The notes below the pieces were generated by a model. It was given only the letters and a program-made list of their open reading frames with translations. It ran no database searches and had not been told where the DNA came from. From a virus, in the IMG/VR virus record IMGVR_UViG_3300037520_000346, positions 1 to 24,817 of that record: a stretch of 24,817 nucleotides of DNA; one strand, given 5' to 3'. A program made the translations under genes and the position numbers. Below, piece after piece: positions 3,506-24,742 of this stretch. Position 1 is the stretch's first letter. Each line of letters begins with the position of its first letter.

Positions 3506-3731
3506 TATCAATCTCCGTCCATTGACTAATCCATGCTTTAGGAATGATCATCAATCCATTACACTCATCATCATGTATGGTGGCTGCAATGTGTACACAA
3601 TCGTTGTTCTCAAATGTCATGAACCCTATTGCCTTACACTTTGCAGTATCACCAACACCCTTCTTAGACCATCCTGAGCTGGCTACAGCGTCAACCCATT
3701 CTAAATAAACTATTGTGTCGGTGGTTGCCAT
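3414..3731 (-). CDS. Conserved hypothetical protein (105 aa)
   Basis: Function not known to me. Visible elements are an N-terminal YLEWVDAVASSGWSKKG, a middle CKAIGFMTFENNDCVHIAATI, and ECNGLMIIPKAWI. This order (WxDA..GW, then C-x-(S/A)-I-G-F, then a short strand and MxIPK) recurs in small proteins of many tailed phages. The last 25 residues are very basic (KRKKQRKTVAKAGGTKAKRHFQPKR), which may bind nucleic acid, although this part also overlaps the nuclease gene. The ATG at 3731 overlaps the exonuclease stop by 22 nt. Confidence 0.65.
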   Translation of the reverse strand: MATTDTIVYLEWVDAVASSGWSKKGVGDTAKCKAIGFMTFENNDCVHIAATIHDDECNGLMIIPKAWISQWTEIDIEAFKRKKQRKTVAKAGGTKAKRHFQPKRT

Positions 3732-4399
3732 AGCTCATCTTCCTGTCGTCTAATCCATAACAATTGACCATTCTCTATTACACGTTCTTGATTGTTATCG
3801 TAAGCCTTCAGCACAGCTTCGTACATCTTTAGCTCTGTATCTGCTTCAGCAAGGATCTTATCTGCTTTCTTAGGACCGATACCACGTAAGCCTTCAATGT
3901 TATCTACCTTGTCTCCTGTAAGGATTTGTCGGTAGAAGTTTTTAATAGCTTCTTTGTCGTCGATGTAATAACTCTCTTTCTTGACTGGGTTGTAGTGATA
4001 ACCAGGAATCATGTCTAAGTCTTTGTCAATGGTAACGATTACCGATTTGTCTCGTAAGCTCGTGGCATGGATTCCAATAGCATCATCAGCCTCTTGTCCG
4101 TTGACCACTCTGAAGTCCCAAGCAGTATGCAGGTACTCACGAAGGCGAGGAAGATGAATTGGCCTAGCTGCATCTTTTCTGTTTCCTTTGTATGGTTGTG
4201 TCTTAGCAATAGCATACCTAAAGTTATTAGATCCTGTTAGGTAGCCGACACAATCGTCAGAAGAGAGATCTATAAAGACCAGCTCTTCCAACAACTCTGC
4301 CATAGTTTTGATGGCTACACTCTCAGTCTCTTCATTGCAGGCAAAGCCTACTCTGTAGCAGAGAATGTCACCATCAATGATTGGCAGTTTAGAGGACAT
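3710..4399 (-). CDS. 5'-3' exonuclease of the FEN/PIN family
   Basis: Probably removes RNA primers and degrades 5' ends or flaps, similar in role to T7 gp6. Key points in the 229 residues are IIDGDILCYR (D9, D11), YKGNRK at 70-75, the metal-binding EADDAIG at 103-109 and TIDKDLDM at 123-130, and the helix-3-turn-helix TGDKVDNIEGLRGIGPKKA at 161-179. All expected acidic residues appear intact. It lies between SSB and a second nuclease, in the replication block. The start at 4399 overlaps the SSB-like gene by 11 nt. Confidence 0.9.
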   Translation of the reverse strand: MSSKLPIIDGDILCYRVGFACNEETESVAIKTMAELLEELVFIDLSSDDCVGYLTGSNNFRYAIAKTQPYKGNRKDAARPIHLPRLREYLHTAWDFRVVNGQEADDAIGIHATSLRDKSVIVTIDKDLDMIPGYHYNPVKKESYYIDDKEAIKNFYRQILTGDKVDNIEGLRGIGPKKADKILAEADTELKMYEAVLKAYDNNQERVIENGQLLWIRRQEDELWQPPTQ

Positions 4400-5016: not shown

Positions 5017-6656
5017 CAGTGGGTTTCCTTCCAGTTATTACCTACTTTGTATTCCCCTGTTAGAGGACAACGTAACCCTAAAGTTACTCCAGCTTGCTCT
5101 ATAGCATCTACTGCAAGCCTACCAACCTTGTCGGATAACTCAGAAGGACACTCTATCTGCCATTCATCATGGACGTTAGCAACAAACTTAGCAGGTATCT
5201 TAAACTTCTTCAGTGAATCATGAAGATGGATAAGACCTTGTTTCATGCAGATCGCCCCAGCTCCTTGAAGAAGCGTATTAAGTGCTGCGTGTTCCGACCG
5301 TATCCATAGTCTACGACCATCCAATCCTGGCACAAACCCTTTCTCTGCATACTTTGCAACCTTCTCTTTAAGCATTTTGAGAGCTGGCGTATTCTTAAGG
5401 AACGAGGCGATAAGCCTCTTGCCAGCATCTGCGTTGCCTCCGACAATTGATCCGATCTTAGCTGGGCCAGCCCCGTATAAAAACGCGTAGATAAACGTCT
5501 TTGCTTGAGGTCTGGTTTGTAAACCAGCAGCGAGTTGGTTTTTGCTGTGGACATCCCCATTAATCACCTCCTTTGTATACTCTTCATCCTTCATGTAGTG
5601 GGCTAGCATTCTTAGTTCTAACCCTGAAGCATCACAGCCTACTAAGACATTACCAGCATCCACAGTCCACACTTGTCTGGATACATCACCATACTCTGCT
5701 GTCACTGCTGGAACCTGAGCCATGTTAGGGCTATGGTGTGTCATACGGCCTGTGACAGCACCATTAGTGATGACCTTACCATGAACCCTACCATCGTCAG
5801 CAACGTGCTCTAGCCACGATGAAGCCTGTGCAATACGCTTTTGTATCAGTAGGTATTCAGCCATTGCCTTAGCCTCTGGATAGGGTAGCTTAGACAGAAT
5901 AACCTCATCAACCATAGGCTTACCTGTCTCAGTAAACTTCTCAGGCTTCCAGCCTAGCGATGTAAGTCTACGTCCTATCTGATCTCTAGAGCCGGGGTTA
6001 AACACTTCGACATGATCCTTTAGTTTCTTTCCTGTTTTTTCACTGATCCTTTCTGTAATGATAGGTGGAAATATTGATTGTAGATTCTCCTCAATGTTAG
6101 ATAACTTAGACTGTAACTCGGACACAAAAGCAGTACACAAAGGTATGTCTAACTTAAAACCATTACGCTCCTGCTGTGCAACAATGAATTGTACCTTATG
6201 TTCCAGTGCAATGCTTTGCGGTGAAAAGTCCTTCATATCTTCGCATAACTTGCGGTGAAGATCACCAGTGAGGTGTACATCCTGGATACAATAGTCAATC
6301 ATTTGCTGTGTCAGTGCAGTGAAATCTTGGAACTCAATCTTGTGATTCCCCAGCCTTTTTCCCCACGCCTCTAGACTGTGTCCTCCTTCGATACTGGGAT
6401 TCCATAGCCTCGACAGCACGAGCGTATCGCAAGCCTTCTTGAGTGGTATCGTAATGTTCCACAATCTCCGTAGGTGGTAACCGTCGAAGCTGATTAGATT
6501 GTGTCCGATCACTGTGTCGTAATCCTCTATAAGAGGCTTTAGTGTACTTGCTTGAGTATGACATACAACCTCACCCGTTGTCAGATCCTTTGTTACTACG
6601 CAAAAGATAACACTCTGCTTCATGTCTGTTTCGATGTCCAGAACTAAGCTCTTCAT
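5016..6656 (-). CDS. Family A DNA polymerase with 3'-5' exonuclease (T7-like, compact)
   Basis: The replicative polymerase. The exonuclease part has D7/E9 (LDIETD), HNLISFDGYHL at 52-62 and YCIQDV at 122-127. The polymerase part has VTGRMTHHSPNMAQVP at 301-316, motif A CDASGLELRMLAHYM at 341-355, motif B RPQAKTFIYAFLYGAG at 382-397 and motif C VHDEW at 495-499. The motif B position equivalent to E. coli Phe762 is Tyr390. At 546 residues it is far shorter than T7 polymerase (704), and I see no room for the thioredoxin-binding insert in the thumb. The start is fixed by the exonuclease motif near the N-terminus; its ribosome-binding site is weak. Confidence 0.95.
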   Translation of the reverse strand: MKSLVLDIETDMKQSVIFCVVTKDLTTGEVVCHTQASTLKPLIEDYDTVIGHNLISFDGYHLRRLWNITIPLKKACDTLVLSRLWNPSIEGGHSLEAWGKRLGNHKIEFQDFTALTQQMIDYCIQDVHLTGDLHRKLCEDMKDFSPQSIALEHKVQFIVAQQERNGFKLDIPLCTAFVSELQSKLSNIEENLQSIFPPIITERISEKTGKKLKDHVEVFNPGSRDQIGRRLTSLGWKPEKFTETGKPMVDEVILSKLPYPEAKAMAEYLLIQKRIAQASSWLEHVADDGRVHGKVITNGAVTGRMTHHSPNMAQVPAVTAEYGDVSRQVWTVDAGNVLVGCDASGLELRMLAHYMKDEEYTKEVINGDVHSKNQLAAGLQTRPQAKTFIYAFLYGAGPAKIGSIVGGNADAGKRLIASFLKNTPALKMLKEKVAKYAEKGFVPGLDGRRLWIRSEHAALNTLLQGAGAICMKQGLIHLHDSLKKFKIPAKFVANVHDEWQIECPSELSDKVGRLAVDAIEQAGVTLGLRCPLTGEYKVGNNWKETH

Positions 6657-8826: not shown

Positions 8827-9026
8827 TGCTCACCCCTTGCTTTCAGCATGGCGTCGGCCATCAAATACGACGCCTTTGCGGTGACGTGTGCGGTATGCTC
8901 ATCGTGCGCTTTTCCGCAACTAAACAGACCTTGCATCGCCTTAGCTGCAAAGTAATCGCGCAGTGTCATTCCTGTTTCGTTCGGCCATCCGTTTCGTGGA
9001 AATGCTGGTCCTCCATCGTTAATCAT
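8823..9026 (-). CDS. Small conserved phage protein (67 aa), RDYFAAKAMQG type
   Basis: Contains GGPAFPRNGWPNETGMTLRD then YFAAKAMQGLFS, and ends with ASYLMADAMLKARGEQ. Proteins of this type (GPAFP...GMTLRDYFAAKAMQG...A.AYxMADAML) are common in proteobacterial phages and prophages; their function is unknown. It belongs to the cassette joined by the repeated junction, with ATGA overlap to the helicase on one side and to the next gene on the other. Confidence 0.75.
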   Translation of the reverse strand: MINDGGPAFPRNGWPNETGMTLRDYFAAKAMQGLFSCGKAHDEHTAHVTAKASYLMADAMLKARGEQ

Positions 9027-9211
9027 TGCTCACCCCACACAAGCACGTCCGCCTTTCCGGTAAACACCATCCACGCAGCCGTAACGCGCTTTTTGATGTT
9101 GATCCCAGACCAGCTTTCTGGTCTGGCTGGCGCCCACAAGCCATTTTTCAATTGCTTAGAAACATCCCAACACTTGATGTCCGTCGCTGAATAGACCATG
9201 GGTGTCCTCAT
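9023..9211 (-). CDS. Hypothetical protein (62 aa)
   Basis: Encodes a small, weakly basic protein: MRTPMVYSATDIKCWDVSKQ, then LKNGLWAPARPES and a C-terminal VTAAWMVFTGKADVLVWGEQ. It looks globular and has no known signature. The coding case rests on clean ATGA overlaps at both ends and on the repeated GGGGTGAG ribosome-binding element shared with its neighbours. The tail GEQ is partly dictated by that element. Confidence 0.6.
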   Translation of the reverse strand: MRTPMVYSATDIKCWDVSKQLKNGLWAPARPESWSGINIKKRVTAAWMVFTGKADVLVWGEQ

Positions 9212-9501
9212 ATCTCACCCCTTGCTCTGATGTCGTCTCTAATTTCGTGCAATGCTCGATAAGTCCATTCACAAGCAAGCTCTCCAGACCGAGAATTACC
9301 GACAGGTATTCGATACGTTTCAATGATCTCGATGCAGGCTTTTCTTTCATGTGCTGCGACAAGGGCAGCAAAACGCTCTAAATCCTTGTGGGTAAAAGCA
9401 TAAAGACCGTACGGTGTTTTCGTCATCATCAAGAGGGTTTCCCACGGCTTGCGTATGCCTTCTTGTATAGCAAGTTCGTCAAGTCCGATGTGGTTAGTCA
9501 T
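9208..9501 (-). CDS. Hypothetical protein (97 aa), phage HER-type
   Basis: Contains FTHKDLERFAALVAAHERKA then CIEIIETYRIP. A segment of the form LERFAxLVAAHERxAC is found in many small proteins of proteobacterial phages, usually of unknown role. The start ATG lies just behind GGGGTGAGCA, which also carries the methyltransferase stop codon. The end ATGA overlaps the next gene. Confidence 0.65.
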   Translation of the reverse strand: MTNHIGLDELAIQEGIRKPWETLLMMTKTPYGLYAFTHKDLERFAALVAAHERKACIEIIETYRIPVGNSRSGELACEWTYRALHEIRDDIRARGEI

Positions 9502-11260: not shown

Positions 11261-11728
11261 CTACCTTTCGTATGAGTATCTTTGTTTAACTATGTTGTGA
11301 ACTGTAGCCGTACTGGTGTTGTTTAAGGCTGCTGTTTTTCTTAAGGATAGTAAAGATAAATAATCTTTTCGTATCTTTTCAACCTCAGCTTCAGTGTGTT
11401 TTTTAGGGTTTGGGTTAAATCTTCTTCCTTTCCTTATCATGTCTTGTACATTGTCTTTTTGAGTTCCTAAAAACAAGTGATTAGGGTTAACACAGCCGGG
11501 ATTATCGCAATGATGGCAAACACAAAGGTTACTTGGTACAGGCTGTTCATTGTTTTTGTAGTATTCATAAGCATACCTATGTGCAAGTGAAAATTTATAT
11601 TCTGTGTCCCTTTGAACATGAAATTGCCCATAACCTCTCCTATGTTTAAAACCTAACCATTCCCAACAATCATCTGGACCTTTCATGTCTACTTTCTTAC
11701 GCCAGCGTTCAAAGGTAGTCCTTTTCAC
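11261..11728 (-). CDS. HNH homing endonuclease, free-standing
   Basis: A 155-residue protein of the HNH_3 type. The nuclease core has CWEWLGFKHRRGYGQF (22-37), SLAHRYAYEYY, LCVCHHCDNPGCVNPNHLFL with the HH, zinc cysteines and final N-x-x-H, then GTQKDNVQDMIRKGR. The C-terminus (SLRKTAALNNTSTATVHNIV) resembles a helix-turn-helix DNA-binding unit. Start is GTG, which shares bases with the TGA of the preceding gene (GTGA). No room exists on the upstream side for a group I intron core, so it is an intergenic mobile gene. It sits immediately before the zinc-ribbon frame that lacks a start. Confidence 0.88.
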   Translation of the reverse strand: MKRTTFERWRKKVDMKGPDDCWEWLGFKHRRGYGQFHVQRDTEYKFSLAHRYAYEYYKNNEQPVPSNLCVCHHCDNPGCVNPNHLFLGTQKDNVQDMIRKGRRFNPNPKKHTEAEVEKIRKDYLSLLSLRKTAALNNTSTATVHNIVKQRYSYER

Positions 11729-23152: not shown

Positions 23153-23175
23153 CCTAAACTTTTAAGGAATTTAAA

Positions 23176-24742
23176 ATGGCATCAGCAGCATATCCTGGAG
23201 GAAGTGGCTCCATTGTTAACAAGACCAATGCGGATAAATTTATCCCTAGCCTATAATTTTGGGGATGTAAAACCTTCTCTGAATAACTGGGAAAGAACGT
23301 AAGGTGTCTTAACCAGAGGGAACACGACATTACCAACAATGCAGTTCACACCGTGGAGGGTGTATGAAGCGATTAAGTTGGAAGTATATTGCAGGTTTGA
23401 TTGATGGCGAAGGCTGTCTAGATGTTCAAGTAACAAACGGTATTTATGTCAGACCAAGAGTTAGAATTGGAATGGCTGTTAGTTCTAAGATGTTACTTGA
23501 TATGTTGCAAACAAATCATGGTGGTTTTTTAACCTACCGTGAAAGTAAGAATGACAACTGGCAAGATTCTGTATCATGGGAACTTGTTGGATACAGTAAA
23601 GTATGTCCTTTCTTACGAAACATAGCAAACCATCTATATATCAAACATGAACAAGCCAGATTTCTCCTGTGGATGGAGAATAACTTAAAAGGCAAGCAGG
23701 TCGCTGATGAAGCAAGACAGCTTGTTATAACTGAGCTAAAAGCAATGAAGCGTGACCCGCACAGACTAAGTGAGAAGGCACAGGAGTTAGTAAGTAGACT
23801 TCTGTGATGCGATAGTCGGAATATCTTTTTAGATATTGGGAAATTTGGTCAGACGAAATAATTGCAAGTTACAAAAAGAATCTTGTTATGGCGAACCTCG
23901 TCAACAAGATGACGATGCGTGGTAAGAAAGGCGATACGCTTCACATTCCTAGCCCCACTCGTGGCGCAGCGTTCGCTAAAGCAGCTAACACCGCTGTTAC
24001 GATTCAGGCTAACGTTGAGTCTGAAGTACAGGTCAGCATCAACAAGCACTACGAATACTCACGCCTCATCGAGGACATCGTAGAAGTTCAGGCATTGGCA
24101 TCACTTCGTCGTTTCTACACGGAAGACGCTGGTTACGCCCTTGCTACTCAGGTAGACAGCGATCTTATTCAGATCGGTCGTCTCTTCAACGGCTCACACG
24201 CTGCTGGTGCTACTGGTGACTATAGTGTGTCAGGTACAACCACTGCCTACATTGGTGGCGATGGTACTACTGCATTCGTTGGTGGTGCTGGTGCTGGTAA
24301 TGCAACTGCATTGACCGATGCTGCTATTCGTCGTACGATTCAACGTCTTGACGATGCTAACGTACCTCAAGATGGTCGTTACTTGGTTATTCCTCCTGTT
24401 GCTCGTAACACCCTTATGGGTCTTGCTCGCTTTACTGAGCAAGCATTTGTTGGTGAGCAAGGTGGTAACAACACCATCCGTAACGGTCAGATTGGTGACG
24501 TATACGGTGTTAAAGTGTTTGTTTCTAGCAACGCTGACACTGCTTACGCTTCTTCTGGTACAGCTCCTCGTGCTTGCTTGATGTTCCACAAGGATGCAAT
24601 GGTTCTTGCAGAGCAAATGGCTGTTCGCTCACAGGCTCAGTACAAGCAAGAGTACCTAGCTACGCTTTACACTGCTGATACCCTTTACGGTGTTGCAGAG
24701 CTGCGTAACGATGCTGGTATTGCTCTGATCATTCCGAGCTAA
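23176..24742 (+). CDS. Major capsid protein, split gene: exon 1 23176-23247, exon 2 23840-24742
   Basis: The spliced product is 324 residues. Exon 1 encodes 24 residues (MASAAYPGGSGSIVNKTNAD, KFIP). Without splicing, translation stops at TAA two codons later. Exon 2 continues EIWSDEIIASYKKNLVMANL, then MTMRGKKGDTLHIPSPTRGA, KHYEYSRLIEDIVEVQALAS and ends with AELRNDAGIALIIPS. The join P|E between codons (phase 0) restores the usual coat-protein beginning KFIPEIWSDE-xx-xYK. The protein is probably an HK97-fold coat. AAGGAA precedes the ATG. An internal ATG at 23888 would give a form lacking the N-terminal 40 residues, which is unlikely to be the real start. Confidence 0.9.
23248..23839 (+). ncRNA. 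Group I intron in the major capsid gene
   Basis: 592 nt. The guide AATTTTGGGGAT (23255-23266) pairs on one side with exon 1 end ATCCCT (P1, with U-G at the splice site) and on the other with exon 2 start GAAATT (P10). Core pairings: P3 GTGTCTT (23304-23310) with AAGGCAC (23775-23781); P7 GACTA (23764-23768) with TAGTC (23813-23817); P8 AGGAGT (23782-23787) with ACTTCT (23798-23803). P9 is AATATCT/AGATATT (23820-23837) with a TTTT loop. The last intron base is G. P4-P6 were not resolved by eye. Confidence 0.93.
23364..23807 (+). CDS. LAGLIDADG homing endonuclease encoded in the intron
   Basis: 147 residues. KYIAGLIDGEGCLDV (7-21) is the LAGLIDADG motif with the catalytic acidic residue; PRVRIGMAVSSKMLLDML and YRESKNDNWQDSVSWELVGY form the beta-sheet DNA saddle, and ARFLLWMENNL with a basic C-terminus follow. 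One motif only, so it should work as a homodimer. GGAGG lies just before the ATG. The last 44 nt of the gene also form the P7 left strand, P3 right strand and P8 of the ribozyme, so translation and folding must compete. It would spread the intron into intronless capsid genes. Confidence 0.9.
   Translation: MKRLSWKYIAGLIDGEGCLDVQVTNGIYVRPRVRIGMAVSSKMLLDMLQTNHGGFLTYRESKNDNWQDSVSWELVGYSKVCPFLRNIANHLYIKHEQARFLLWMENNLKGKQVADEARQLVITELKAMKRDPHRLSEKAQELVSRLL

Follow-up and report, generated by a model that had tools for sequence, protein, structure and literature searches.

A probable mobile group I intron with a LAGLIDADG endonuclease reading frame in the major capsid gene of a podovirus-like phage

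The locus described here raises a simple question: how is a full-length capsid protein made from a gene that is split in two? The window, by which we mean the whole stretch of 24,817 nucleotides analysed (IMG/VR record IMGVR_UViG_3300037520_000346), carries the gene and all parts of its interruption on the plus strand. Exon 1 (positions 23176–23247, 24 codons, MASAAYPGGSGSIVNKTNADKFIP) is preceded by a Shine-Dalgarno-like AAGGA at 23164–23168. It ends in GATAAATTTATCCCT (KFIP), which is followed by AGC CTA TAA, the stop being the third intron codon in frame with exon 1. Exon 2 (23840–24742, 300 codons plus stop) begins with GAAATTTGGTCAGAC (EIWSD...), and its frame is open to 24742. The initial annotation had described both a 24-codon exon that meets a stop at once if unspliced and a coat-protein frame that resumes at 23840, and it was correct on both points. 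Exon 2 matches PHROG 267 (major head protein) with E=5e-47, the match beginning at profile position 43, and also matches the Pfam families Phage_capsid_2 and P22_CoatProtein (PF19821, PF11651). The interrupted gene is a P22-type major capsid gene (MCP), and the carrier is a podovirus-like phage. Joining the two exons gives ...KFIP|EIWSDEI... at the junction.

The extent of the interruption is clear from related capsid genes, in which exon 1 has a homologue that is contiguous with exon 2. The 80 closest loci in IMG/VR were compared, 73 of which are informative. In 66 of these, exon 1 runs straight into exon 2 (FIP|EIW) with no insertion at the site, while five carry this intron in the identical position and two carry a relative of it lying 10 nt downstream. 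The closest of the intronless alleles, L003, is identical at 97.6% of the 972 coding bases. By this comparison, the sequence missing from the relatives is 592 nt long, from 23248 to 23839, and its last base is G, as it is in the other copies extracted.

The pairings expected of a group I intron were compared in 42 copies extracted with their boundaries. P1 is formed by the end of exon 1 (ATCCCT, 23242–23247) and the internal guide sequence GGGGAT (23261–23266). It pairs 6/6 in 41 of the 42 copies, with a U.G pair at the splice site (U at -1) in all 42, and the exon end and guide co-vary in nine combinations. Exon ends ATCCCT, ATTCCT, GTCCCT, GTTCCT, ATACCT, ACGCCT, TTGCCT and TTTGGT each have a matching guide. 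Immediately before the P1 guide lies AATTTT (23255–23260), which forms P10 with the start of exon 2 (GAAATT, 23840–23845). When exon ends were shuffled among copies, the permuted sets averaged 177.9 P1 pairs (sd 2.0), where 197 of 198 are observed, and 139.3 P10 pairs (sd 4.0), where 159 of 198 are observed; none of 2000 shuffles reached the observed value in either case, although these permutations ignore shared ancestry and so give strong rather than exact probabilities. P3 (CCTTCTC, 23273–23279, with GAGAAGG, 23772–23778) is paired at 231 of 231 positions in 17 co-varying pair sets, compared to a shuffle mean of 182.0 (sd 3.8) and a maximum of 199. Chance is thus excluded, by comparison among copies, as the source of the P1, P10 and P3 pairings.

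P7, P8 and P9 are also present. P7 (GACTA, 23764–23768, with TAGTC, 23813–23817) shifts in step to GACTG/CAGTC and GGCTG/CAGTC in relatives, and the P9 hairpin (AATATC-TTTTTA-GATATT, 23820–23837) has compensatory changes among copies. The P8 hairpin (CACAGGAGTT / GACTTCTGTG, 23779–23806) is variable in relatives yet remains paired. An RNAalifold consensus of the aligned copies contains P4 (CTGG, 23287–23290, with CCAG, 23313–23316), P5 within it (23293–23296 with 23307–23310) and P6 (GAAC, 23320–23323, with GTTC, 23344–23347); P5 shows variation, whereas P4 and P6 hardly change and covariation accordingly says little about them. Taken across copies, the co-varying P1, P3, P7, P9 and P10 identify the element as a group I intron on sequence grounds. 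The initial annotation had proposed such an intron, with one continuous guide pairing with both exon ends, a U.G pair at the junction, P3, P7, P8 and P9, and a terminal G; all of these features are found, and the guide pairings co-vary.

The Rfam model suggested as a check on this proposal was less responsive. A scan of the window at the gathering threshold gave no match, and under relaxed settings RF00028 scores 15.1 bits against a gathering cut-off of 50, with a match that extends over the full model, P7 and P9 included. The gathering score is a detection threshold and not a structural criterion. An ORF of about 400 bases lies between P6 and P7 and the sequence is divergent, so that the low score plausibly reflects this insert and the divergence and not a missing fold. 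Among 32 related loci, the sole Rfam match was to a second, different intron in L130, described below.

While the initial annotation had the fold and the boundaries right, it overlooked an ORF that takes up most of the intron. The ORF runs from 23364 to 23807 (147 residues plus stop), with a Shine-Dalgarno GGAGG at 23355–23359, 4 nt upstream, and contains a single motif, IAGLIDGEG. It matches Pfam PF00961 (LAGLIDADG_1) above cut-off (E=9e-5), and a profile built from 34 relatives matches I-MsoI (E=1e-13), I-CreI and I-CvuI in the PDB. AlphaFold2 gives a confident model (pLDDT 94.5), for which Foldseek finds I-CvuI (E=1e-8) and I-CreI (about 5e-8) with TM-scores of 0.6–0.7. On these predictions, the protein is a LAGLIDADG homing endonuclease with an I-CreI/I-CvuI-like fold. 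Relatives conserve E16, the motif's acidic residue. Because there is only one LAGLIDADG motif, the enzyme is presumably a homodimer. The homing endonuclease is probably the main reason for the presence of the element.

The ORF is intact, and a dN/dS of 0.11–0.24 over its whole length indicates that it is under purifying selection. The 3' strand of P3, the 5' strand of P7 and the 5' half of P8 all fall within the last endonuclease codons (HRLSEKAQ...), the stop codon TGA overlapping the foot of P8. In this overlap dN/dS rises to as much as 1.65 (close pairs, few sites), compared to 0.10–0.18 elsewhere in the ORF, the pattern that RNA pairing would produce if it governed the C-terminal codons.

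Relatives of the endonuclease outside the family are remote. A search of isolate phages found only relatives at 33–37% identity, mostly LAGLIDADG genes of Gordonia and Streptomyces phages, many of them near methylases, and bacterial and archaeal genomes contained none above about 33% over a useful length. Since there is no good bacterial or archaeal match, no host is inferred. It is worth adding some observations on annotation. A gene of Cyanophage PP (KF598865.1, 38042–38467; L260:4001–4426) annotated as DNA endonuclease / HNH endonuclease is actually a LAGLIDADG relative with 35% identity, free-standing between the terminase and portal genes. PHROG 5046 (62 bits) and 12980 (21 bits), both labelled HNH endonuclease, match the LAGLIDADG protein, and the label may be wrong. 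Elsewhere in the window, in the early gene region, an HNH_3 homing-endonuclease-like ORF lies on the minus strand at 11261–11728, and Rfam shows no intron around it.

The intron is one member of a sizeable family. A DNA motif from the P4-P5 region was found in 79 contigs, 77 of them in a capsid context; the other two (L184, L258) look like chance matches and were rejected. The endonuclease search gave 83 relatives, of which 80 were kept. The two lists overlap strongly, and the total is roughly 80–90 IMG/VR contigs. Family members occupy the capsid site of the window or lie within about 10 nt of it. The same codon junction is used in MCPs that are down to 20–30% identical as proteins, and all ten of the distant ones tested belong to PHROG 267. 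Among isolate phages a search with the intron DNA gave no match, nor was any family member found in an isolated phage, and an exact search of viral contigs for the spliced junction of the window allele, as in an RNA-derived contig, gave none.

Within the family, introns are more alike than the genes that hold them. The intron of L082 and L032 is 98.8% identical to that of the window, compared to 85% for the L032 coding sequence and 75% for its upstream gene. In L090 the intron is 92.6% and exon 2 76.6% identical, and introns at the downstream site are 96.7–98.7% alike in capsid genes that are 77–83% alike. Such comparisons indicate that the intron has moved horizontally. The sequences flanking the site carry a short, conversion-like footprint: ATCCCT|GAA is present in 15 of 15 close intron-bearing alleles and in 1 of 30 intronless ones. 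L005 and L003, its nearest intronless relative, are identical over the 72 nt before and the 80 nt after the site except at -4 and -1, and L093 differs from L031 only at -10, -4, -1 and +3. Co-conversion over a very short tract would explain this footprint, and so would selection for bases that allow splicing, because the positions that change are the ones that pair in P1 and P10.

Other insertions occur close by. The related intron at site B, 10 nt downstream (FIPEIW|S; L114, L116, L117, L119, L120, L122–L124, also L012 and L053) has P1 TTTGGT/GCCAAA and an endonuclease 60% identical to that of the window, and is found in near-identical capsid genes. L130 has a second group I intron (3564–3834, Rfam 81.4 bits) about 80 nt into exon 2 of the same capsid gene, and L153 and L159 stop matching where it is inserted. 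L198 (near 8880–9240) and L143 (after 3560) carry a further intron-like insertion, whose LAGLIDADG ORF is a different one; this insertion begins about 36–39 nt past the intron at the window's site (site A) and implies a micro-exon. In L208 (near 3355) and L225 (reverse strand, near 5880) the family member is apparently about 5–6 nt downstream of site A.

The best explanation, in which we have high confidence, is a mobile, splicing group I intron that carries a homing endonuclease in the capsid gene. In the transcript, the guide sequence would dock both exon ends through P1 and P10, and the P3–P9 core would presumably splice autocatalytically, by the standard two-step guanosine reaction, restoring ...KFIP-EIWSDEI.... 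Unspliced RNA, with its own ribosome site, would be translated into the 147-residue single-motif endonuclease. The enzyme would then cut the intronless capsid genes of co-infecting phages, presumably at the conserved codons of FIP-EIW-SDE, and repair templated on the allele with the intron would install it together with a few flanking bases. The horizontal transfer and the flank footprint are indirect support for cutting of the intronless allele. As a logical consequence, capsid yield would depend on splicing. The element has the appearance of an active gene parasite, one that standard annotation misses.

The endonuclease might in addition benefit the carrier phage mainly by attacking intronless phages that infect the same cell, as a weapon of interference competition. 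This would be an addition to the intron explanation and not an alternative to it. The enzyme would be expected to cut the capsid gene of close competitors, and the intron endonuclease of PhiPA3 is a precedent (PMC11620839). Furthermore, with sites A and B separated by 10 nt and the capsid genes near-identical, the two related introns compete for almost one target. However, homing alone accounts for the data, and we consider a weapon role possible but somewhat unlikely. A wider proposal goes further: that this is a capsid-specific mobile intron family which has spread over deeply divergent phages via their most conserved capsid codons, with introns competing 10–40 nt apart, with the endonuclease acting as an inter-phage weapon, and with translation through the core balancing enzyme against capsid. 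We offer it tentatively, as a speculation that we rate below even odds by a good distance and slightly doubt more than the weapon role itself.

Two other readings fare much worse. The homing intron could be degenerate, splicing poorly on the way to loss, or the phage could tolerate little capsid. The low Rfam score is compatible with degeneration, but the core helices that were found are intact in the window, compensatory changes among family members keep P1, P3 and P7 paired, and nothing interrupts the endonuclease ORF. The capsid gene, moreover, is essential and apart from the intron has an open frame. This reading is very improbable. Finally, that a free-standing homing endonuclease gene broke the capsid gene, with capsid made without exon 1 from the ATG at 23888, which starts a 284-residue ORF inside exon 2 that gene callers would pick, can be set aside as the least credible: such a start would drop 40 N-terminal residues found in the intact intronless relatives, and would leave the U.G-ended P1 covariation, the P3 covariation and the terminal G unexplained. 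The initial annotation had itself looked to relatives starting at this ATG without exon 1 as the evidence against an intron; the intact intronless ones begin with exon 1, FIP|EIW uninterrupted, and the broken gene was rejected on this ground. An intein in the window is ruled out by the stop codon right after exon 1 and by the frame.

These observations add a sizeable intron family that lies below the Rfam threshold. Gene callers would hide such an intron, because the internal ATG gives a plausible capsid protein that is 40 residues short, and marker-gene surveys of capsids would mis-start or split such genes. Intron-plus and intron-minus alleles that are about 98–99% identical, with co-changing guide–exon pairs, allow direct tests of homing, of co-conversion and of the efficiency of capsid splicing. 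The core helices that lie over endonuclease codons are a natural case of one sequence shared by RNA and protein.

The family appears to be a new, apparently undescribed one of an already known kind; the literature search, with many subscription papers outside its scope, found no paper on it. The endonuclease shares with I-CreI, I-MsoI and I-CvuI the fold and size class, the single motif and the acidic motif residue, at about 20% identity. Those enzymes come from introns in algal organelle rRNA genes, whereas the host gene here is a phage capsid gene. The cyanophage Pf-WMP3, which has a distantly related capsid protein (29% identity), also has a group I intron with a homing enzyme (I-PfoP3I), but in the DNA polymerase gene and with an HNH nicking enzyme (PMC3428280). 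The usual enzymes of phage introns are GIY-YIG, HNH and related types (PMC3984707), with one LAGLIDADG case listed in Bastillevirinae (PMC11878797). The initial annotation regarded a capsid gene as an unusual location; the intron is indeed there, but it is not unprecedented. The mycobacteriophage LittleE has a probable group I intron in its major capsid gene, with splicing demonstrated by RT-PCR and N-terminal sequencing, and resembles the present case in its endonuclease ORF, U at -1, terminal G and intronless relatives (PMC3706429); the lactococcal phage Tuc2009 is cited in the same paper as having a capsid-gene group I intron. In LittleE, however, the enzyme is of the HNH type and encoded on the opposite strand, and the intron lies at another site (nt 496, PMC11855218) in an HK97-like capsid gene, whereas here the enzyme is of the LAGLIDADG type, its sense-strand ORF overlaps the core of the ribozyme, and the interrupted genes are P22-type capsid genes.
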